From an uncultured Arenicella sp. (GTDB lineage Bacteria > Pseudomonadota > Gammaproteobacteria > Arenicellales > Arenicellaceae), in the NCBI GenBank assembly GCA_937974565.1, contig CALJWL010000024.1, positions 1 through 64,000 on the forward strand: a DNA stretch of 64,000 nucleotides, read 5' to 3'. Under the pieces are notes generated by a model, which was not told the DNA's origin, did no database searches, and saw nothing but the letters and a program-made list of their open reading frames with translations. The position numbers and the translations under genes were made by a program. Below are positions 12,543-47,913 of the stretch, one piece after another (positions within the stretch are counted from its first letter, which is position 1; every line of letters begins with the position of its first letter).

Positions 12543-12578
12543 CGGCTTAGAACCCGGCTTAGAACCCGGCTTAGAACC
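12543..12578. repeat. Perfect 12-bp tandem repeat, three copies, at the copB stop codon
   Basis: The unit CGGCTTAGAACC occurs three times without mismatch. On the minus strand each unit carries TTC-TAA, so the copB stop codon at 12571-12573 is followed by two more in-frame TAA codons exactly 12 and 24 bases on. Slipped-strand duplication of the gene end is the simplest explanation. Confidence 0.95.
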
Positions 12579-13281
12579 AAGAGTGCAAACCGAGCATAAT
12601 GGAAACCTCACTGCTATTTTCGGCTTGCGTTCGTGCTAAACGTTTGGTCGCTCCGAAAAGCTGAGTCGCCGTTATACCGACAAAGGGTTGCAGCTTGGAA
12701 CTTCCTCTATTTTCGTAGCCCAGCCGGACACTAAATTCAATTTCGGCCAACCCAGAACCTTCTCCAAAACGCTCATTGCTTCGACCATTAGCGATAATAT
12801 CTAATTCTGGGGTTAGTACCCATTTTTGAGTTAGCATTAATTCACGTTCCAGTTCGATCAGTAATTGACTGCTGGATTCTTCGCCGATGAATACTCGCGC
12901 ATCCACGTCAACAAAATAGGGTGCAGTACCGATAAAACCATACGAAATCCAGTGCCGTGTATGGTTTACAGCGTTTGACTTAAAGTCCTGCCGAAAGCCG
13001 AATTGTTGGTCCCAATAAGCCGTGCTGGCTTTGCTGTACACCAGTTCGATGTTGGCGTTCTCGAGTGATGAACCAGCGTATTCACCTGAACTTTTAAGCC
13101 AAAATTTATGGATGTCTCGGCCATACCACGCGTCAATATCCCACTCGAAAGTGCCCTGCCCTTCAGTGTTTAGATACTCAAATTCAGACACCACTTTGTT
13201 TAACCAAGGGTCATCGTTAAACATGGCCTTGGAGTGTTCCATTGGCAATATCAACAGGCAGGCTAATAGTTGGAGTCTCAT
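12571..13281 (-). CDS. copB: Copper resistance protein B (outer membrane)
   Basis: Outer-membrane beta-barrel protein of the CopB/PcoB family, which works with the periplasmic oxidase CopA in copper tolerance. Recognisable family segments are EGQGTFEWDIDAWYG near the start, KFWLKSSGEY, the AYWDQQFGFRQDF strand, and the terminal aromatic residues HSWF typical of outer-membrane barrels. It has a short signal sequence. The Met/His-rich N-terminal linker found in many CopB proteins is absent, so this is a minimal 236-residue form. The ATG overlaps the copA stop by four bases (ATGA), so the two are translationally coupled. A triplicated 12-bp repeat lies at its stop codon. Confidence 0.9.
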   Translation of the reverse strand: MRLQLLACLLILPMEHSKAMFNDDPWLNKVVSEFEYLNTEGQGTFEWDIDAWYGRDIHKFWLKSSGEYAGSSLENANIELVYSKASTAYWDQQFGFRQDFKSNAVNHTRHWISYGFIGTAPYFVDVDARVFIGEESSSQLLIELERELMLTQKWVLTPELDIIANGRSNERFGEGSGLAEIEFSVRLGYENRGSSKLQPFVGITATQLFGATKRLARTQAENSSEVSIMLGLHSWF

Positions 13282-15167
13282 AACCGCCCCTGATTGCTAA
13301 TGTGTACTTGTCGAAACATACTGGGCATGTGAAATAAAAGATGGCAATGGTAAGCCCATTTACCCAACGCATCGGCGGTAACTAAGTAACTGATTTTAGC
13401 GCCGGGTTGCACAATGGTGGTATGCTTGCGAGGAATATAGTGTTCATCGCCTGTTTCCAATTCACTCCAAACGCCATGCAGATGCATCGGGTGATTCATC
13501 ATGGTGTTATTGATCAAAGTAAAGCGAACGCGCTCACCAAATTTCAGATTGATCGGTTCAGCGTCTTTGGATCTTACACCATTAATCGACCACATATAGC
13601 GACTCATGTTGCCAGTTAAGTGCAACTCGATTTCACGTTCGGGCTCCCTTGGGTCGCTGGTGGGAGTTAAGTTAAATAAGTCGGCATATGTCAACACTCT
13701 TCGGCCGTTGTCTCTTAACCCTACACCAGGGTCGTCTAACCGGTACTGGGCTGCATGAGCGATCATGTCTATGTGCGGTCCCATTTTAATAAGATCGAAA
13801 GACGGCGGCTTGTTCGTGCCGTAACCGGCTTTGCCGGTGGCAAACGTCGGTGTTCTTTTCTGAACCGTTTGTGGTGTTACTTCGCAATGCCCCATCTTAG
13901 CGTGTTCAGGCGTACAGCTTGTGTGTGTGGCTGTGATGGCGGGCAAACCACAGTGCCCCATAGACGCATGCTCTGGCGAACAGTCGCTGGGTTGATTATT
14001 GAACAAATGATTAATGTGATTGTTATGTTGCATACCCATATCGGCATGACTGAGCGTGGGTGACTCGTCCATTTCTGGCACGGTCGGAACCATTTCAGGG
14101 TCAGTTGTTAACGTGCCTCGCGCATAACCAGAGCGATCAATCGTTTGACAGAACAAGGTGTAAGCTTGTTCACTGCTGGGTTGTACAAGCACGTCGTAAG
14201 TTTCCCCCACAGCTAACCTGAACTCATCCACTGAAATCGGTTGTACATACTGACCATCCGCTGCCACTACCGTCATTCGTAACCCCGGAATACGCACATC
14301 AAAAAAGGTCATGGCGGCGGCATTGATAAATCGCAGCAGAATAGTCTCGCCACGCTTAAAGCCTCCAACCCAGCCAGAGGCTGGAGTTTGGCCATTCATC
14401 AAAAACGTATAAGTACGGCCAGTGACGTCGGATAAATCAGTGTCCGACATTCTCATGTTATTCCACATGGCGCGTTGATGTAGCGTTCGAGCTAGGCCCT
14501 TAGTTCGAACATCCTTAGCAAAATCAGCTAAGGTTCGTTGATCAATATTATAAAAATGCGGCTGTTTTTTTAGGTTTGCATAAATGTCTAGTGGGTCTTG
14601 ATCAGACCAGTCGGATAACAGCACTACATGCTCGCGATCATAAACATAGGGCGCAGGTTTTTTAGGCTCTATGATGATCGCTCCATACATACCTTGTTGT
14701 TCCTGAAAGCCTGAATGGCTGTGATACCAGTAAGTGCCGTTTTGTTTTATCTCAAACTGATAGCGATATGTTTCGCCTGGTTTGATGCCCGCAAAACTCA
14801 AGCCTGGCACGCCATCCATGTTTGATGGCAAAATAATTCCATGCCAATGAATGGAGCTGTCGACAGCCAAATGATTGGTTACATCCAACGTGATTCGATC
14901 GCCTTCTTGCCATCGCAAAATTGGTGAAGGCACCGAACCATTAACGCAGTAGGCTTGCTTTAAATAGCCGGTAAAATTAACTGGCGTGTGATTGATGTTC
15001 AGCTTGTAACGAGTGCCAGAAAGTTCTGGCGCTCTTGTGAACGCCGAAGAGTGGTAAAACTCAGCTTGTGCGGAGCCTAAACCGGCTGAATTCAATAGAC
15101 CTAACGTCGTTGATGAAGCCAGGCCAGTGACAAAACGGCGTCTAGACATGGAAAATGGGGTATTCAT
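13278..15167 (-). CDS. copA: Multicopper oxidase CopA, Tat-exported
   Basis: Periplasmic multicopper oxidase of the CopA/PcoA class that oxidises or sequesters copper. A twin-arginine signal (SRRRFVTG) begins at residue 8. The four copper-binding motifs are present: HWHG, HSHS, HPMHLHG and, near the C-terminus, HCHLLFHM. Between the second and third cupredoxin domains lies a Met/His insertion, including MGMQHNNHINH and two copies of a C-x-PEHA-x-MGHC motif at about residues 395 and 422. Cysteine pairs in this loop are less usual than the plain Met/His repeats of plasmid PcoA. Length is 629 residues. The gene follows the CopL-like gene by 49 bases and overlaps copB, forming a copLAB-type operon. 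No copper ATPase or CueR-type regulator is adjacent. Confidence 0.95.
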   Translation of the reverse strand: MNTPFSMSRRRFVTGLASSTTLGLLNSAGLGSAQAEFYHSSAFTRAPELSGTRYKLNINHTPVNFTGYLKQAYCVNGSVPSPILRWQEGDRITLDVTNHLAVDSSIHWHGIILPSNMDGVPGLSFAGIKPGETYRYQFEIKQNGTYWYHSHSGFQEQQGMYGAIIIEPKKPAPYVYDREHVVLLSDWSDQDPLDIYANLKKQPHFYNIDQRTLADFAKDVRTKGLARTLHQRAMWNNMRMSDTDLSDVTGRTYTFLMNGQTPASGWVGGFKRGETILLRFINAAAMTFFDVRIPGLRMTVVAADGQYVQPISVDEFRLAVGETYDVLVQPSSEQAYTLFCQTIDRSGYARGTLTTDPEMVPTVPEMDESPTLSHADMGMQHNNHINHLFNNQPSDCSPEHASMGHCGLPAITATHTSCTPEHAKMGHCEVTPQTVQKRTPTFATGKAGYGTNKPPSFDLIKMGPHIDMIAHAAQYRLDDPGVGLRDNGRRVLTYADLFNLTPTSDPREPEREIELHLTGNMSRYMWSINGVRSKDAEPINLKFGERVRFTLINNTMMNHPMHLHGVWSELETGDEHYIPRKHTTIVQPGAKISYLVTADALGKWAYHCHLLFHMPSMFRQVHISNQGRL

Positions 15168-15216
15168 TTGACCCTCCTAACAAATTAATTAAAAATGGAA
15201 ACGTTTTTGTTAGAGG

Positions 15217-15621
15217 TTATTTAGGTGGGCGTGGGTCAATTGTAAGTAAGCGATTTAATAGGCTGGTTTTAATGTTTGAAATAACAGCGCTGGGTACGGC
15301 GTTTGCTGTGTGAAGAACTAGCCTGCTTGTGAGCCCCTGAGACATCACTGAGCAAAATATTTTGCAAGCGGCAGAGCCGGATGTTTGGCAAGGAGGCTTT
15401 TGTGGTGAATGACAATCCTCGTCTGTGCCAAGTGAGTTGCCGATATCAACGAAATCATGGCGTAACAATTCAGTCTTTGGGTTGCTGTTTGTCAACCCCA
15501 TTGAGGCAGCGTTAGTTGTGCCGGAAAACGTCGGAAGAGCGTGCAATGTTGCGATGCTAGACACTGTTAGATAGCAGACCAGCGAGAGTCGTATAAAAAT
15601 TTTGCGAATGTTTAAAGACAT
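15217..15621 (-). CDS. Small exported Cys-containing protein, CopL-like
   Basis: A 134-residue protein opening with a signal sequence (FIRLSLVCYLTVSSIATLHA). Four cysteines at residues 70, 78, 86 and 90 with neighbouring histidine suggest a periplasmic metal-binding patch. It is the first gene of an operon with copA and copB. In Xanthomonas the equivalent position is held by CopL, a small Cys/His protein needed for copper-dependent expression. The analogy rests on position and composition, not on clear sequence identity, so the name is tentative. No other domain is recognisable. Confidence 0.6.
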   Translation of the reverse strand: MSLNIRKIFIRLSLVCYLTVSSIATLHALPTFSGTTNAASMGLTNSNPKTELLRHDFVDIGNSLGTDEDCHSPQKPPCQTSGSAACKIFCSVMSQGLTSRLVLHTANAVPSAVISNIKTSLLNRLLTIDPRPPK

Positions 15622-15793: not shown

Positions 15794-16342
15794 TTAACGT
15801 TTTGCTGTAACCGTGAACAGCACCGGTGCTTCAGGTTTTGGCGAATTTGAAGTGTGTTCTTTAATATCCCAATGGTCATTAAGTTGGGTAAGCCAGTGCC
15901 GAACATTCTTAGTTTCAATTATTCCTTCTTTATGCCCTGGATAGCAAATCATGCAAAGAAGCCCGTTTGGGTCAAGGTGTTCCAAAATTTGATTGAGCGC
16001 ATTAAGGCTTGATGCGCTTTGCGTTGTAATACTTTTATCAGCGTTGGGTAGGTAACCAAAGTTAAACATGGCACAGCTTATTGGGTTGCAAATAAAGTGT
16101 GATAAATACTCATGGCTCTGCTGATGCAGCGTTACGTTAGTAAAGCGGCCTGATGCAATTCTCTTTTGGGTGTTATTAATTGCTTGAGTTTGTATATCAA
16201 AGCCAATGATTTGCGCGAAGCCCTGTCGTGCAAGAAACTCAGTGTCATGCCCATTGCCACAGGTTGCATCTACGGCCAACCCTTTTTCCTTGTCTAAAAA
16301 ATGATCGTTTACTAAAGAATGCGCTAAACGCGTTAGGGACAT
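15794..16342 (-). CDS. MnmM/YtqB-type class I SAM methyltransferase (tRNA nm5s2U methylation)
   Basis: SAM-dependent methyltransferase of the YtqB family (Pfam rRNA_methylase), shown in Gram-positive bacteria to convert nm5s2U to mnm5s2U at the tRNA wobble position (MnmM). Visible family marks are the SAM loop VDATCGNGHDTEFLA (about residues 24-38), NFGYLPNADKSITTQ (about 94-108) and CYPGHKEG. The ATG has a GGAG site. Enterobacteria use the methyltransferase half of bifunctional MnmC for this step. Here a separate FAD oxidase of a type like the other half of MnmC lies 1 kb away on the same strand. Assignment to the family is firm; substrate identity is by homology. Confidence 0.85.
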   Translation of the reverse strand: MSLTRLAHSLVNDHFLDKEKGLAVDATCGNGHDTEFLARQGFAQIIGFDIQTQAINNTQKRIASGRFTNVTLHQQSHEYLSHFICNPISCAMFNFGYLPNADKSITTQSASSLNALNQILEHLDPNGLLCMICYPGHKEGIIETKNVRHWLTQLNDHWDIKEHTSNSPKPEAPVLFTVTAKR

Positions 16343-16838
16343 TCGTATTCTCCGTTATATTTGTAAAAGTTCGGCATTTTAAAGCAATTTTCTTTGGCGT
16401 GGGTTCCGAGTTGATCAAACTCAACGACGCACTATTTTCACCCATTTAGAGGATGTCACTCTGTTTTACAGTCCGTATAGTAACTGCATGTTGAGTGGGT
16501 TAGTTTTAAATTCACTCATCCTCGAAGGACGGGGATCAGCGGGGCTATTCTGACGTTACGGATAGTGACATTGCTCAGGAGTGTGTGTTCGAAGGACATT
16601 ATGTGAGTATCAGTTTAGAGCATGGTTTTTCAGAGTTAAATAATTTACTTCTGCCGTAATTAAAGTAAGCCGCAATGAGCATTACTGTACCGCTAGATGA
16701 TTAGTAGAGGCTATTGGGAGTCGTCAAAATGCGCTCAGTATTAACCGTTAGAACACCACGTCATGTCAATGATTGTGAGCAACCTATGGCGCGTGGCTGT
16801 CAACGGATCTTTGTAAACAACTTTTAAGGAGTATTAAA
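16343..16838. other. Divergent intergenic region without recognisable genes
   Basis: About 500 bases between the mnmM start and a small plus-strand gene. Only short frames with poor composition are present. No tRNA, strong hairpin terminator or repeat family was seen. A good ribosome site (TTTTAAGGAG) ends the region. Confidence 0.5.
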
Positions 16839-17234
16839 ATGCCAGTAGTAAGCGATTTCACAACCATTTTAGGTGACAGTAATGTCAAAATAGGCGACAA
16901 CTCTAACGAATCAGGTTGGACCCAATCATTTAACACCGGGGGGCGCCATTCGCCGGGCACGGCCATGATCACATTCATGATCAAAGGCATGACGGTAACC
17001 ACCTCTAACGCCACGGTTTTTGTGAATGATAAAAACGTCGGCACCTTGTTCAATAACCGAGGTGGCAATGCCAATCATTGGCAAACACAGACCGTGTCAT
17101 TAAATGGGTCATCACTGAATAACGGCAACAATGTTATTCGAGTGACCCCAGTGACTAACCAAACCAGTTCAACGGATGATTTTGATGATTATTTTCTTCG
17201 TAATGTGATCTGTCATTTTCATCAATCGGCTTAG
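16839..17234 (+). CDS. Orphan small beta-rich (jelly-roll-like) protein of unknown function
   Basis: A 131-residue protein without signal peptide or membrane segment. AAGGAG eight bases upstream of the ATG makes it a convincing gene. Composition is rich in Asn, Thr, Ser and Gly, and the pattern suggests a beta sandwich: GGRHSPGTAMITFMIKGM, then TVFVNDKNVGTLF, then WQTQTVSLNGSSLNNGNNVI. The order of strand, then vNxxxVGxL, then W-x-V-x-L, then L-x-x-G-x-N-x-I is common in galactose-binding-like modules that bind sugars or surfaces. It stands alone between two minus-strand genes, so it is probably monocistronic. I do not recognise the family. Confidence 0.6.
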   Translation: MPVVSDFTTILGDSNVKIGDNSNESGWTQSFNTGGRHSPGTAMITFMIKGMTVTTSNATVFVNDKNVGTLFNNRGGNANHWQTQTVSLNGSSLNNGNNVIRVTPVTNQTSSTDDFDDYFLRNVICHFHQSA

Positions 17235-17364
17235 GTTGATTTAGTATGACGCGTTGTGCTGCTTCGCCATTCCAAATGAGGCAGCGCAATGTTGTCAACT
17301 TTTTTCACCCGTTGAACTGTGCCAGTTAGCCATCAACTTAAGTCAGTCGTTTAGAGTCATTGAA

Positions 17365-18420
17365 TTAGAGCCATTGGGTGTTTTCTCTAGCCAAACTCTT
17401 TTTCAGTAACAGGTGATTGCAAAGTTGTTCTACGTAATGCGGTGCGACTAGGCAGCCTTTACTTCCCAAGCCATTTAAACAATACGCATTAGCCAGGTTG
17501 GTTAACGGGCCAACAAATGGCTGCCTATGTTTGGTGCTGGGTCGAATACCCACTTCGTGCAGTAAAGTCGTTGCTTCTAGTTTGGTGAATTCTCTTAAGC
17601 TCTTATGAAAGGCGTTAGCGGCCTCCTTTGTTTTGACTGGAGAGGTGTCATTCCAAATGTAGTTTGATCCTAATTTGGCCTTATTCTTAGCAAAAGGCAC
17701 TAACCAATTCCCCCAACTTAGCATGCGATCTAACGGTTGTTGGGTTCTAACGGTTAGAATCTCCCCTTTGGCGAGTTTAAAGGGCAGCTGGCCTAGCCAC
17801 GGATTATCAATGGCCTGAAAACCCTCGCAAAATATGACGCTTTTCGCATTTAATTGTAGATCAGCAATTGAGTATTTAAACAGTCCATTGATGACTGTCA
17901 GTTTGTCATAATTAATACGAGTTTGAATGAATGAATTGCGATTTTTTAGCCATTGTTGAATGGCGTATAGCAACGGTTTGGTATCCACGACGGCCGTTCT
18001 AGAAACGTGGATAGCGCCGTGTGGAAATTCGGCGGATTCAGTAAACCAAGCGCCGGTGTTTTGCATGTCCTTCAATAAACTTTGATATTCTGGTTGGCGC
18101 TTACGCTGTTCTAAATACTGAGCTTGGCCGGCGTTCTTGATTAATCGGGTTTGTGCTATTTCGGAATAGATCGAACACCCCAGATCACGTTCTATTTGCC
18201 AATAGAGCTTTCTCGCTTTTTCGGCATAACCAAAAAAACCATTGGTGATATTCAGCCGATGGCCTGTAATCGGGTTTATCAAACCCGCGGCAACTTGGGT
18301 CGCGCAACCGCTGTGATGATTATCAATCACCATTACAGAGCGTCCGCGCTTAATGAGTGAATAAGCCATGAGTGAGCCAGCTAAGCCTTGACCAATGATA
18401 AGGAATTCGGTTGAGAGCAT
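17365..18420 (-). CDS. FAD-dependent oxidoreductase, DAO family (MnmC oxidase-like)
   Basis: Flavoprotein of the D-amino-acid-oxidase fold. The dinucleotide site FLIIGQGLAGSLMAYSLIKRG lies at the N-terminus, followed by VAAGLINPITG, the loop where the MnmC oxidase domain and its relatives approach the flavin. The C-terminus (VGIRPSTKHRQPFVGPL, then YCLNGLGSKG) is the conserved FAD/substrate end. The start is placed at the ATG at 18420, giving 351 residues; the frame is open 50 codons further up, but that extension would precede the Rossmann fold with no homology. Nearby mnmM suggests it could oxidise cmnm5(s2)U to nm5(s2)U. A small-molecule amine or glycine oxidase role is the alternative. 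Confidence 0.75.
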   Translation of the reverse strand: MLSTEFLIIGQGLAGSLMAYSLIKRGRSVMVIDNHHSGCATQVAAGLINPITGHRLNITNGFFGYAEKARKLYWQIERDLGCSIYSEIAQTRLIKNAGQAQYLEQRKRQPEYQSLLKDMQNTGAWFTESAEFPHGAIHVSRTAVVDTKPLLYAIQQWLKNRNSFIQTRINYDKLTVINGLFKYSIADLQLNAKSVIFCEGFQAIDNPWLGQLPFKLAKGEILTVRTQQPLDRMLSWGNWLVPFAKNKAKLGSNYIWNDTSPVKTKEAANAFHKSLREFTKLEATTLLHEVGIRPSTKHRQPFVGPLTNLANAYCLNGLGSKGCLVAPHYVEQLCNHLLLKKSLARENTQWL

Positions 18421-18563: not shown

Positions 18564-20423
18564 TTGGCAAAAAAATTGATAGGCGAAAAACGGTTTTTGC
18601 CTTATTTCTGCACGCAATTTCTGGGCGCGTTTAATGACAATATTTATCGTAATGCCTTCGCGATTTTGATTACGTATTTTTTGGCAAAAAACAATCAAGA
18701 CGGCGGTGTGATTATCAATTCTGCTTTGGTTGCGTTTATCCTGCCTTTTTTATTGTTCGGTGCCATTGCGGGTCAATTAGCTGATAAATACGAGAAAGCG
18801 TTTTTAATAAGGCAAATCAAACTGGCCGAGATCGTTGTGATGATTATTGGTAGCGCAGCGCTTTATTTTGAGTCTACGTATGGCATGTTGTTTACTCTGT
18901 TTGCCTTGGGTTCTCAATCGGCGTTTTTTGGCCCGATAAAATACAGCATTTTACCTCAACATGTGACGAAGGATGAATTGCTGGATGCTAACGCTTACGT
19001 TGAAGCGGGCACGTTTATAGCCATTCTTCTTGGCACCGTTTTAGGCGGTGCCCTTGGCAGCCCAGAGTTGATTTATTATCTGATGCTTGCCATTGTTGGT
19101 TTTGCGGTTTTAGGTTGGTTTACCTCGTTATCGATCCCGAGTGCCCCTGCAGCATTGCCCAGCTTGGAGTTTTCGTTCAATGTTCCAAAGGTAACGATCG
19201 AAATTATCAAGGAAGCCGCTTCTAATCGCCCCGTTTTCATGAGCATATTGGCGAACTCTTGGTTTTGGTTTTTTGGTGCAACCATTCTTACGCAATTTCC
19301 GATTTTTGCTAAAGAAGTCCTCGCTGGTGATAAACAAGTGGCGATTTTATTGCTCGCCACGTTTTCGATCGGAATAGGGTTAGGGTCGTACGCTTGTGCC
19401 CTATTTTCGCGTGGGCGAGTTGAAATGGGCCTTGTTCCTTTTGGCGCTATTGGTATTAGCTTTTTTACTTGGCAGTTAAGTCGCACAAATGTTGATGTGG
19501 CTGAGCAGCTGCGAACCTTGAGCGAGGTATTTGCGGTTCCAGGTACTTGGTGGGTGATTTTAAACCTAACGATGATCGCATTCTGTTCCGGTTTGTTTAT
19601 TGTGCCGCTCTATGCGTTCATGCAGCTGTACAGCAAGGAAGAGCATCGATCACGCACTATTGCTGTGAACAACATTATAAATTCAGTATTTATGGTGTCA
19701 GCCGGAGTTATGGCGGCGGCACTGATTCATTTTGGTTTTAACGTCTTAGAGATATTTAAGATTGTTGCAATTATGAACATTATTGTGGCGGTCTATATCT
19801 TTTCTAAAATACCCGAGTACTTTTTGCGACTATTGAGTTGGCTGTTGGTCCATGGAATTTATCGAATCAAAAAAACGAACATCGACAACATACCCAAAGA
19901 AGGCCCAGCACTGATTGTGTGTAATCACGTTAGCTTTTTCGACCCGCCGATATTGCTGGGCGTGCTACCTAGGCCAGCCAGGTTTGTAATGTGGTATGGG
20001 TTCTACAACCTTCCAATAGCTGGGCGACTTTTTAAATGGTTAAAAACCATACCGATAGGCAACGCGCGCGAGCGTGCAGACTTAGTGCCATTGGCGTACG
20101 ATAAAATTGCTGAGGAACTCGAGGCAGGACACTTAGTGGTAATATTTCCCGAAGGTCATATTACCAAGACCGGAGAGCTTAATACTTTTCAGCCGGGCAT
20201 CGATAAAATTTTGAAAAGAACACCGGTGCCCGTTGTCCCCATGGCCTTACGTGGTGTCTGGGGAACTTGGCTCTCAAGAAAAAAAGGTCGAGCATTCAGC
20301 GGTTTTCCTACCACATTCATGAAAAAATTAACCGTGGTAACCGGTGATGTAATGCAACCTGAAAACGTCAGTAAACAGGCTTTGTTTGATAAAGTATTAG
20401 AACTGCGTGGTGATGAAAAATGA
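18564..20423 (+). CDS. LplT-like MFS transporter fused to PlsC-type acyltransferase
   Basis: Inner-membrane fusion protein likely to import or flip lysophospholipids and reacylate them. Residues 1-420 hold about 12 membrane segments of the LplT type, starting with the family signature FLPYFCTQFLGAFNDNIYRN. Residues 430-610 are a glycerolipid acyltransferase with the H(x4)D motif NHVSFFD at about 453 and a FPEG motif (FPEGHITKTG). Aas proteins add an acyl-ACP synthetase domain after PlsC; this one ends without it, so acyl donors must come from elsewhere. The TTG start is supported by GGGAGG six bases upstream. The stop overlaps the tag start by ATGA. It is divergent from the FAD oxidase gene. 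Confidence 0.85.
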   Translation: MAKKLIGEKRFLPYFCTQFLGAFNDNIYRNAFAILITYFLAKNNQDGGVIINSALVAFILPFLLFGAIAGQLADKYEKAFLIRQIKLAEIVVMIIGSAALYFESTYGMLFTLFALGSQSAFFGPIKYSILPQHVTKDELLDANAYVEAGTFIAILLGTVLGGALGSPELIYYLMLAIVGFAVLGWFTSLSIPSAPAALPSLEFSFNVPKVTIEIIKEAASNRPVFMSILANSWFWFFGATILTQFPIFAKEVLAGDKQVAILLLATFSIGIGLGSYACALFSRGRVEMGLVPFGAIGISFFTWQLSRTNVDVAEQLRTLSEVFAVPGTWWVILNLTMIAFCSGLFIVPLYAFMQLYSKEEHRSRTIAVNNIINSVFMVSAGVMAAALIHFGFNVLEIFKIVAIMNIIVAVYIFSKIPEYFLRLLSWLLVHGIYRIKKTNIDNIPKEGPALIVCNHVSFFDPPILLGVLPRPARFVMWYGFYNLPIAGRLFKWLKTIPIGNARERADLVPLAYDKIAEELEAGHLVVIFPEGHITKTGELNTFQPGIDKILKRTPVPVVPMALRGVWGTWLSRKKGRAFSGFPTTFMKKLTVVTGDVMQPENVSKQALFDKVLELRGDEK

Positions 20424-46139: not shown

Positions 46140-46415
46140 ATGCAATGTTATGTTTATAAGGGTGATCGTAAAGACGATCACTATATTTATCTTGCTGAAG
46201 AACTGAACGTGAATGAACCAGATAAAAGCCTGCCTGCGGCGATTACCAAATTGCTAGGAGGCTTGACCTTTGTGTTGGATTTTGAATTAACGCATGAACG
46301 AAAACTGCCGCAAGCGGATGCGCATCAAGTGCTTGCTGACATTGAATCGCAGGGCTTTTATTTGCAAATGCCCAAAAAAGACTTACGCGCCGAAGAAGAT
46401 CGGATATTCAGCTAA
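46140..46415 (+). CDS. ycgL: YcgL-family protein
   Basis: Small cytoplasmic protein of the YcgL family, unknown function. MQCYVYKGDRKDDHYIYL at the start and QGFYLQMPKKDL near the end match the two conserved parts of the family. The ATG at 46140 is preferred over a TTG at 46122, since YcgL proteins begin just before the CxVY strand and a GAGGT lies upstream. Its stop overlaps the tusD start by one base. The placement inside the sulfur relay operon is suggestive but unexplained. Confidence 0.85.
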   Translation: MQCYVYKGDRKDDHYIYLAEELNVNEPDKSLPAAITKLLGGLTFVLDFELTHERKLPQADAHQVLADIESQGFYLQMPKKDLRAEEDRIFS

Positions 46416-46804
46416 TGGACATCAATTTGATTGTAAATGGGGCGGCTTATAGTCGTCAATCGGCCTACACCGCACTCAAGTTTGCTGAGCAGGCGTGCGA
46501 TCAAGGTCACAGTATTAGCCAAGTTTTCTTTTATCGCGACGGCGTGTCTCAAGGCAATTTTTTGGCCATGACACTGGCGGACGAATTTAATGCCGTTGAA
46601 GCTTGGGTGGCCTTTGCTCGTGACCATGATGTTAAGTTAGTGGTGTGTGTTTCCGCAGCAGAGAGACGAGGTATCATCAACCAACAACAACAGGCAGAGT
46701 TTGGCAAACCGAGCGCCAATCTGCATCCTGCCTTTGCTGTTGAAGGTTTGGGTGCGATGCATGACGCCAGCCTGAGCGCGAATCGAACGGTTACCTTTCG
46801 ATGA
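46415..46804 (+). CDS. tusD: Sulfur relay subunit TusD (DsrE family)
   Basis: Sulfur-transfer subunit of the TusBCD hexamer. DsrE fold: INLIVNGAAYSRQSAYTALK at the start, VFFYRDGVSQGNFL, and the active cysteine in LVVCVSAAERRGI at about residue 78, the position of E. coli TusD Cys78. 129 residues. The tusC start overlaps its stop by four bases, so TusD and TusC are co-translated. Confidence 0.93.
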   Translation: MDINLIVNGAAYSRQSAYTALKFAEQACDQGHSISQVFFYRDGVSQGNFLAMTLADEFNAVEAWVAFARDHDVKLVVCVSAAERRGIINQQQQAEFGKPSANLHPAFAVEGLGAMHDASLSANRTVTFR

Positions 46805-47187
46805 GAGCGGTTTCCATGGTTGGCAAAAAAAAATTATTATACGTTTTTGAAGATGGCCCTTATTCAGGCAGTGCCGGCATAGAAGCGCTGGATGCCGTAT
46901 TGATTGGCGCTAGCTTTGAGCAAGAAATTAGTTTGCTTTTTCTTAACGACGGCGTATTTCAGCTTAACGCTGGGCAAAGTGCCAACTCACAACCAACCGG
47001 TCTGAAACAATACACTAACGCCTTTAAGGCGTTGAGTGACTTTGACGTGCATCAAATTTTTGTGCATGACTTAAGTTTAATCGCCCGTGGCTTGTCGCAG
47101 AAAGAACTGCTTATTGATACACGCCTGCTTGACTCACCTAAGGTAGCACAATTGATTGCGCAACAAGATAAGGTGTTTACGTTTTGA
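46801..47187 (+). CDS. tusC: Sulfur relay subunit TusC (DsrF family)
   Basis: Second subunit of the TusBCD complex. The pattern KKLLYVFEDGPYSGSAGIEA, DAVLIGASFEQEISLLFLND and LKQYTNAFKALSDFDVHQIF fits DsrF/TusC, including the final segment IDTRLLD. As in other TusC proteins there is no catalytic cysteine at the TusD position. 128 residues. Overlaps tusD upstream and tusB downstream by four bases each. Confidence 0.92.
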   Translation: MRAVSMVGKKKLLYVFEDGPYSGSAGIEALDAVLIGASFEQEISLLFLNDGVFQLNAGQSANSQPTGLKQYTNAFKALSDFDVHQIFVHDLSLIARGLSQKELLIDTRLLDSPKVAQLIAQQDKVFTF

Positions 47188-47486
47188 GTGCTTTGATTAC
47201 GATCACTGAATCTTTATTTAATCGGCCTTCGTTGTACGAGCAACTTGCTTTTGCCAGCAATGGAGATTCAATTTTACTGATTCAAGATGCCGTACTGGGC
47301 TTGCAAAGCCCAATCGCATTGGCGTCCTTTTTAGCCAAGTGTGATGTTCAGGGAATCGGTGTATTTGCCTTGCAAGAGGACTGTGACTTACGCGGTATCG
47401 ACAATCAATATAACACGATCAGCTTAGTCGACTACGCGGGTTTTGTGGCGTTGGTGGTGGGGAATGAGAAACAGATTGCTTGGTAA
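47184..47486 (+). CDS. tusB: Sulfur relay subunit TusB (DsrH family)
   Basis: Third subunit of TusBCD. The TTG start at 47184 overlaps the tusC stop. MSALITITESLFNRPSLYEQ, DSILLIQDAVLG and the terminal SLVDYAGFVALVV fit the short DsrH/TusB family of about 95-100 residues. It lacks a catalytic Cys at the TusD position, as expected. Confidence 0.9.
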   Translation: MSALITITESLFNRPSLYEQLAFASNGDSILLIQDAVLGLQSPIALASFLAKCDVQGIGVFALQEDCDLRGIDNQYNTISLVDYAGFVALVVGNEKQIAW

Positions 47487-47526
47487 CACGTAATCTCTTT
47501 TATTTCAGTGAGCGCCTAGTTACACT

Positions 47527-47913
47527 ATGATGATGTTCAAACCTACTATTGATGAAGCCACACTTGTCACTCAAAGTGAATATTACATCGAGTTCGACGG
47601 TCAAAAATTTGCCACCGATAACCAAGGTTTTCTGCAGCAAAGGTTGGTTTGGAATGAAGCGTTGGGCCAGCATATGGCAGCCTTGGACGGTATTACGTTG
47701 ACAGGCGAACATTGGGAGATTATTCATTACTTTCGTGAGTATTATGACGATTACAATATTCCGCCGCCCATGCGCATGGTGATGCGTGTGTTTAAAAAAG
47801 CCTTTGGTGAGGAAAATGCCAACAGTCGTTACCTGCTGAAACTGTTCCCTGAAGGCGCAACGAAAGCCGCCAGTAAATTTGCCGGTTTACCCAAGCCAAA
47901 AAATTGTAAATGA
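47527..47913 (+). CDS. tusE: TusE/DsrC-family sulfur acceptor
   Basis: Final protein of the relay, taking persulfide from TusD and delivering it to the thiolase MnmA bound to tRNA. DsrC marks are DNQGFLQQRLVWNEALGQHM, LTGEHWEIIHYFREYY and the flexible C-terminal arm GLPKPKNCK with the essential penultimate Cys. The second DsrC cysteine, about ten residues earlier, is absent, which points to a TusE role rather than dissimilatory sulfite reduction. 128 residues, 40 bases after tusB. Confidence 0.93.
   Translation: MMMFKPTIDEATLVTQSEYYIEFDGQKFATDNQGFLQQRLVWNEALGQHMAALDGITLTGEHWEIIHYFREYYDDYNIPPPMRMVMRVFKKAFGEENANSRYLLKLFPEGATKAASKFAGLPKPKNCK

Follow-up and report, generated by a model that had tools for sequence, protein, structure and literature searches.

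In the bifunctional MnmC of the Escherichia coli type, one protein takes charge of two successive steps at uridine 34 of transfer RNA (tRNA): an oxidase part, MnmC(o) or MnmC1 (TIGR03197), converts the 5-carboxymethylaminomethyl nucleoside, with or without a 2-thio group (cmnm5(s2)U34), to the 5-aminomethyl form (nm5(s2)U34), which the methylase part (PF05430) turns into the 5-methylaminomethyl form (mnm5(s2)U34). The methylase also stands alone, as MnmC2/MnmD, in Bacteroides, alphaproteobacteria, cyanobacteria and archaea. Gram-positive bacteria use a methylase of another family, MnmM (YtqB), together with MnmL, which we take to be YtqA; ytqA and ytqB presumably form an operon in Bacillus subtilis. 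The published sources, cited here by accession from excerpts, place MnmM mostly in Firmicutes, Chlamydia, Mollicutes and plants (PMC9976899), record the radical S-adenosylmethionine (SAM) protein YtqA for mnm5s2U synthesis (PMC12245174) and, in a review, assign the nm5s2U step to MnmC/MnmL (PMC12548931). According to the excerpt of PMC9976899, the enzyme that acts like MnmC(o) in organisms with MnmM is unknown, and such an enzyme is also likely in groups with an orphan mnmC(m), such as Bacteroides, alphaproteobacteria and archaea. Here we describe a locus in a stretch of 64,000 nucleotides from an uncultured Arenicella sp. (contig CALJWL010000024.1, positions 1 to 64,000; hereafter the window), in which an MnmM-type methyltransferase lies close to a stand-alone flavoprotein of the DAO family. 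We propose that the two together would replace MnmC, the DAO protein converting cmnm5(s2)U34 to nm5(s2)U34 and MnmM methylating the product, and we give this reading a probability of roughly 0.84 on the comparative evidence that follows.

The initial annotation of the window had noted the two genes 1 kb apart and asked whether they form a split replacement for MnmC. Both genes are there, on the same strand:

15794 to 16342, minus strand: MnmM (YtqB-type) nm5(s2)U34 methyltransferase of 182 amino acids (aa), activity predicted from its NF053511 match and essential residues
17365 to 18420, minus strand: stand-alone DAO-family flavin adenine dinucleotide (FAD) protein of 351 aa, proposed cmnm5(s2)U34 oxidase, placed by Pfam and NCBIfam scans, tree and fold

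The methylase passes the curated equivalog cut-off of NCBIfam NF053511 (174.6 bits, cut-off 135) and matches Pfam PF06962 with 132 bits. The flavoprotein, whose closest relatives come mostly from uncultured Arenicella (Arenicellaceae, Gammaproteobacteria), matches Pfam DAO with 79.2 bits. Its top NCBIfam model is MnmC_Cterm, the MnmC1 oxidase (TIGR03197), at 81.4 bits with a cut-off of 174.2, and an assignment as ThiO (TIGR02352) was dropped at 72.8 bits against a cut-off of 250.8, all of these DAO profile scores being computed on a longer TTG frame of 401 aa and not on the 351-aa form. The host assembly (3.37 Mb in 72 contigs) is 97.87% complete, and in it no MnmC1 exceeds the cut-off, the best match being the window DAO itself. 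The MnmC methylase PF05430 has no match at an expect value (E) of 0.1, neither in the DAO protein nor elsewhere in the host genome, so the mnmC elsewhere that the initial annotation had proposed to look for was not encountered in this search. The host genome's sole match at E 1e-5 to TIGR01212, the YtqA-type radical SAM family, reaches 26.1 bits with a cut-off of 180.

To place the pair in a wider context we used a survey of 61 genomes of the order and another of 274 Gammaproteobacteria genomes drawn across the class. In both, DAO was scored per genome on the best first-look candidates (7 in the class, up to 25 in the order), a procedure that a weak DAO could escape, and absences are not firm. 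Within the order, DAO was found in 20 genomes and MnmM in 19, all of them in the window's family, where 21 genomes including the window's own were searched (20/21 and 19/21); MnmC1 over cut-off was found in 7 genomes, all of other families and none of the window's. Across the class, MnmM was present in 22 genomes (21 over cut-off), DAO in 20 and both in 19 (Fisher p 3.4e-25, n = 274), and the 19 genomes with both, which belong to 12 gammaproteobacterial families, are all without MnmC2. MnmC2 (PF05430) itself, present in 63 of the 274, was common to neither the MnmM carriers (p 0.003) nor the DAO carriers (p 0.0099). DAO and MnmM stand side by side on one contig in 18 of the 19 genomes, the exception being G139 with the two on different contigs; their match ends are no more than 73 bp apart in 17 of these 18, the window being the one with 1 kb between them. 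Together with the overlap of the two genes in 15 of the 21 family genomes, described below, this means that the pairing goes beyond chance.

The linkage extends beyond the class. A contig scan with an alignment of the DAO family gave 441 relatives, and all locus counts given here refer to the best 80 of these 441. MnmM adjoins DAO in 47 of the 80 loci, always on the same strand, and it lies behind DAO or is fused behind it in 46 of the 47, preceding it in one locus only (L134). The gap between the two genes is 204-760 bp in three methanotroph loci among the 47, and at L123 the contig breaks off within the start of a further MnmM. In eight loci, four from Mariprofundus, three from Schlesneria and one from a gammaproteobacterial metagenome-assembled genome, DAO and MnmM make up one open frame of 551-614 aa with the oxidase first and the methylase second. 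All eight fusions exceed the MnmM cut-off and match DAO-type models below their cut-offs (NCBIfam), and both domains were present in the three that were checked with Pfam. On a quick tree the fusion needs three changes, at least two of them forced by strong branches (six of the eight fusions included).

A more pointed observation comes from Omnitrophota, where the DAO proteins of two loci are sisters (support 100/99) with different partners. One (L119) has MnmC2 just upstream (NF033855, 223 bits, cut-off 136), the other (L134) has MnmM in that place (220 bits, cut-off 135), and each methylase gene overlaps the DAO start by a few bases. Since two different methylases of one reaction adjoin sister DAOs, the swap would be hard to explain unless DAO supplies the substrate of both. 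Linkage of DAO with MnmC2 was seen in 2 of the 80 loci only, adjacent in L119 and about 1.5 kb off in L138. When whole genomes were tested for PF05430 (50 of the 80 DAO genomes, 17 with DAO linked to MnmM and 33 unlinked), it was found in none of the 17 linked and in 19 of the 33 unlinked genomes (p 3.2e-5). These 19 comprise 16 Bacteroidota (of 17 tested), two Calditrichota and one Omnitrophota, the genome of L119; in such genomes the DAO family co-occurs with the stand-alone type of MnmC2/MnmD, from which the window differs by its use of MnmM. Taken together, the co-occurrence, the gene overlap, the eight fusions and the exclusion of MnmC2 lead us to say that DAO and MnmM would act as one oxidation-methylation unit.

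The pathway can be pictured as follows. MnmEG would make cmnm5U34, its presence here being taken from PMC9976899, whose excerpt calls MnmE-MnmG universal in bacteria, and the s2 group would come from MnmA together with the Tus relay. DAO would hold the N-CH2-COO- group of the nucleoside through an invariant arginine, R293, and would oxidize the C-alpha-N bond with its FAD, after which hydrolysis of the imine would release glyoxylate and leave nm5(s2)U34. MnmM would then methylate this product with SAM as donor, yielding mnm5(s2)U34. The substrate and reaction of DAO and the role of R293 are what we infer from the comparisons below.

R293 is kept in all 61 rows of the DAO alignment and G304 in 59 of them, and the two align with the Arg and the Gly of all seven MnmC(o) rows. 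Their spacing of 11 equals that between R567 and G578 of E. coli MnmC, residues that are each conserved in over 98% of 140 MnmC according to the excerpt of PMC3648344. By manual count on the alignment, R293 also meets Arg302 of the B. subtilis glycine oxidase, which the excerpt of PMC3818420 names as equivalent to a catalytic residue. For the window DAO, an AlphaFold model (pLDDT, the predicted local distance difference test, 95.4) was compared with known structures, with Foldseek also run, and was nearest to glycine oxidase (Z 35.6), CmiS2 (34.8), E. coli MnmC (3ps9, 33.4) and iminodiacetate oxidase (32.9); the twelve best rows of the VIA-align comparison all belong to these four. Computed isoelectric points, 9.6 for the window DAO and, as medians, 8.4 for the 61 DAO rows, 7.0 for six fused DAO parts, 9.2 for the seven MnmC(o) rows and 6.1 for five outgroup rows, carry no weight.

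The window pair thus resembles MnmC in its two predicted steps, in the DAO/glycine-oxidase fold of its oxidase, in the invariant Arg with a Gly 11 residues on and in that the two domains are fused in some relatives. It differs in that the methylase belongs to MnmM and does not match PF05430, that the oxidase is under the MnmC1 cut-off and that the genes are separate, the fusions of the relatives having the domains in the reverse order of MnmC. In a tree of 42 rows, 30 DAO rows formed one clade (100/99) and the seven MnmC(o) rows another (100/99); whether the two are sister clades is neither shown nor rejected (approximately unbiased test, p-AU 0.336), and the outgroups sit on long branches in this tree as well as in the quick tree. 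We therefore propose that DAO works like MnmC(o) and do not file it as MnmC1. Since MnmM matches no MnmC2 family and the oxidase is a clade apart, the pair is, as judged from its sequences, not a split of MnmC. The initial idea of a replacement in which two separate enzymes oxidize and methylate is well supported by the comparisons.

Several observations weigh against the proposed replacement of MnmC. The arginine of R293 is also found in three of five outgroup DAO proteins, among them a ThiO-like one, so the residue is not specific, and neither is the fold specific for a substrate, since a Z of 31.5 is still obtained with proline and D-arginine dehydrogenases. The window DAO falls below the MnmC1 and ThiO cut-offs. 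The genomes drawn from the class are not independent of each other, which makes the p-values overstate the association, and the number of families and the linkage weigh more. One single-contig genome (G094) has DAO and neither MnmM nor MnmC2 at the thresholds used, two (G214 and G324) have MnmM with no DAO at E 1e-15, and another (G328) has no more than a fragment of MnmM that scores below the cut-off. Of the 22 genomes with MnmM, five have TIGR01212 at E 1e-20, four of them over its cut-off. In Bacteroidota, a group listed in the excerpt of PMC9976899, a PF05430 methylase is usual, so this family discriminates little there. Finally, PF05430 is likewise missing from 14 of the 33 genomes with an unlinked DAO; four of these have a contig end by DAO or MnmM on another contig, and ten stay unexplained.

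Some of these points would suit an ordinary role for DAO, as a small-molecule glycine or amine oxidase of the ThiO kind that is merely co-transcribed with a methylase, MnmM then acting on nm5U that MnmEG makes from ammonium. MnmEG is able to do so according to the excerpts of PMC3648344 and PMC9976899, glycine oxidase is the nearest fold by Z, the ThiO model does give 72.8 bits, the arginine is shared with a ThiO-like protein, and G094 has DAO without a methylase. With ThiO and the iminodiacetate oxidase IdaA the window DAO has in common the fold, the Arg of a WAGLRP-type loop and the predicted chemistry on N-CH2-COO- groups; unlike them, it belongs to a family linked to tRNA methylases in many loci. 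The ThiO score lies far under its cut-off, and the eight DAO-MnmM fusions and the methylase swap in Omnitrophota tie DAO to this one pathway, which makes a co-transcribed small-molecule oxidase unlikely.

The pair could also have a different, related nucleoside or set of tRNAs as its target, for example another carboxymethylamino-type wobble base, with the specificity of MnmM changed. Mutants of D34, N101, Y104, K110, Y141 and H144 of B. subtilis MnmM have little or no activity according to the excerpt of PMC9976899, and by manual count on the alignment all six are kept in the window as D33, N94, Y97, K103, Y134 and H137. Among 48 DAO-linked MnmM rows, D33, N94 and Y134 are kept in 48, Y97 in 47, H137 in 46 and K103 in 43. 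The same excerpt gives K11E as nearly inactive, and at the K11 position the window protein has H8, as do 41 of the 48 rows with a histidine. At the positions of the U35 contacts Q173 and N175 of the S. aureus enzyme it has P168 and P170 (manual count on the alignment). The filing as MnmM stands, since the deviation at K11 concerns a single residue and the protein passes the curated cut-off. Since the U35-contact positions have changed and H replaces K11, the tRNA range of the window MnmM may be different from that of the Firmicutes enzyme. A different nucleoside altogether we regard as quite improbable, as between 46 and 48 of the 48 rows retain the residues for U34 and methyl transfer (N94, Y97, Y134 and H137) and the pair excludes MnmC2. 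That a radical-SAM MnmL (YtqA) deglycinates as in Gram-positives, with DAO doing something else, seems very improbable: the methylase family MnmM is shared with the MnmL-MnmM system, and the excerpt of PMC12245174 (citing Jaroch 2024) has YtqA as the radical SAM partner there, with five MnmM genomes carrying TIGR01212 as noted, but the partner here is a DAO flavoprotein, the host genome has no TIGR01212 over cut-off, and the family was not found at E 1e-20 in 17 of the 22 MnmM genomes, while 19 of the 22 carry DAO.

The replacement of MnmC by DAO and MnmM, which we prefer, provides a concrete candidate oxidase for some of the groups with MnmM or an orphan mnmC(m), linked to this pathway by its fusions and its change of partner; in Gammaproteobacteria the DAO-MnmM route was seen in 12 families. 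Looking across phyla, we lean towards a broader view in which the DAO family is a second, unrecognized cmnm5(s2)U34 oxidase that teams up with whichever methylase is present, and thereby the missing oxidase of the orphan-MnmD phyla. Its MnmM partners would then be those of Gamma- and Zetaproteobacteria, Verrucomicrobiota, Planctomycetota and some Omnitrophota, and its stand-alone MnmC2/MnmD partners those of Bacteroidota, Calditrichota and other Omnitrophota, and the MnmM fusion would be a convergent MnmC with reversed domain order that arose more than once. A literature search found no DAO-MnmM pair or fusion among the matches listed, and Jaroch et al. 2024 (J Bacteriol) was outside its reach. 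The abstract of that paper reportedly mentions fusion proteins and alternate arrangements, and part of the DAO-MnmM finding may already be in print.

The 1-kb distance between the two genes sets the window apart from its family. The region between and at the gene ends holds the following features:

16343 to 17364, no strand: spacer of 1,022 bp between DAO and mnmM, read as a derived insertion, missing from the relatives' overlapping pair
16839 to 17234, plus strand: open reading frame of 131 aa within the inserted stretch, matching neither Pfam nor NCBIfam at E 0.001
17365 to 17374, minus strand: relic ATGGCTCTAA, overlapping mnmM start and DAO stop of the relatives, no longer the mnmM start here

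DAO and mnmM overlap in 15 of the 21 family genomes, mostly by 10 bp, with the mnmM start inside the last codons of DAO, and two family genomes of another genus have gaps of 5 and 38 bp. Among the remaining genomes, one has DAO and MnmM on separate contigs (G018), in one the contig ends (G008) and one has neither gene (G002), which leaves the 1,022 bp of the window as the sole such case. The window DAO still terminates in ATGGCTCTAA, where mnmM starts in the overlapping pairs of relatives; from this start a stop is now reached after five codons, and mnmM begins about 1 kb further on behind its own GGAG. A 1-kb spacing as the ancestral state was dropped, given the overlap in the relatives; because of this overlap and the relic start, we read the gap as derived, by insertion. 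The 131-aa frame was present only in the host genome's own loci among the loci compared, and a search for repeats at the edges of the insertion gave nothing convincing. The window pair probably still works after the insertion.

A number of loci and genomes outside the window are recorded here in their own right. In three methanotroph loci (L097, L099 and L110) DAO lies directly behind a conserved gene of about 200 aa, which we take to be VF530-like, with MnmM absent from the locus and PF05430 from the genome. The DAO of G094 (L240, 5600-6736) adjoins a gene resembling rdgC, named by eye from the sequence, and that genome has a TIGR01212 protein. G214 and G324 (L238 and L239), which are of one family, have MnmM and no DAO, MnmC2 or TIGR01212 at the thresholds used. 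Weak PF05430 matches of 27-32 bits in the family genomes G002, G003, G007 and G018 were dropped as candidates for MnmC2; those of G018 and G002 are separate proteins of 225 aa that look spermidine-synthase-like by eye (no family scan). In 189 of the 274 class genomes neither MnmM nor a PF05430 methylase was found at the thresholds used, and because of this MnmC may be less general in Gammaproteobacteria than assumed, or many genomes may stop at cmnm5U.

Other genes of the window serve as context only:

18564 to 20423, plus strand: divergent major facilitator superfamily (MFS)/acyltransferase gene, a homolog of which adjoins DAO in the relatives listed
46415 to 47913, plus strand: tusD, tusC, tusB and tusE/dsrC, sulfur relay for the 2-thiolation of the same nucleoside

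The Tus relay had been cited in the initial annotation alongside the pair, and it is indeed present: each of TusD, TusC and TusB exceeds the cut-off of one or more NCBIfam models, and TusE/DsrC that of the subfamily model. Its closeness carries no weight, because it starts about 28 kb from DAO, and as support for the pairing it was dropped. Scanning for promoters and terminators around the DAO-mnmM pair gave counts about equal to those of shuffled sequence, and a plasmid search with DAO returned a single distant match from Paenibacillus. On the other side, next to mnmM (12571-15621), lie two genes for copper resistance, copB and copA, the latter matching the copper_res_A model with 798 bits; a protein of 134 aa upstream matches no family.

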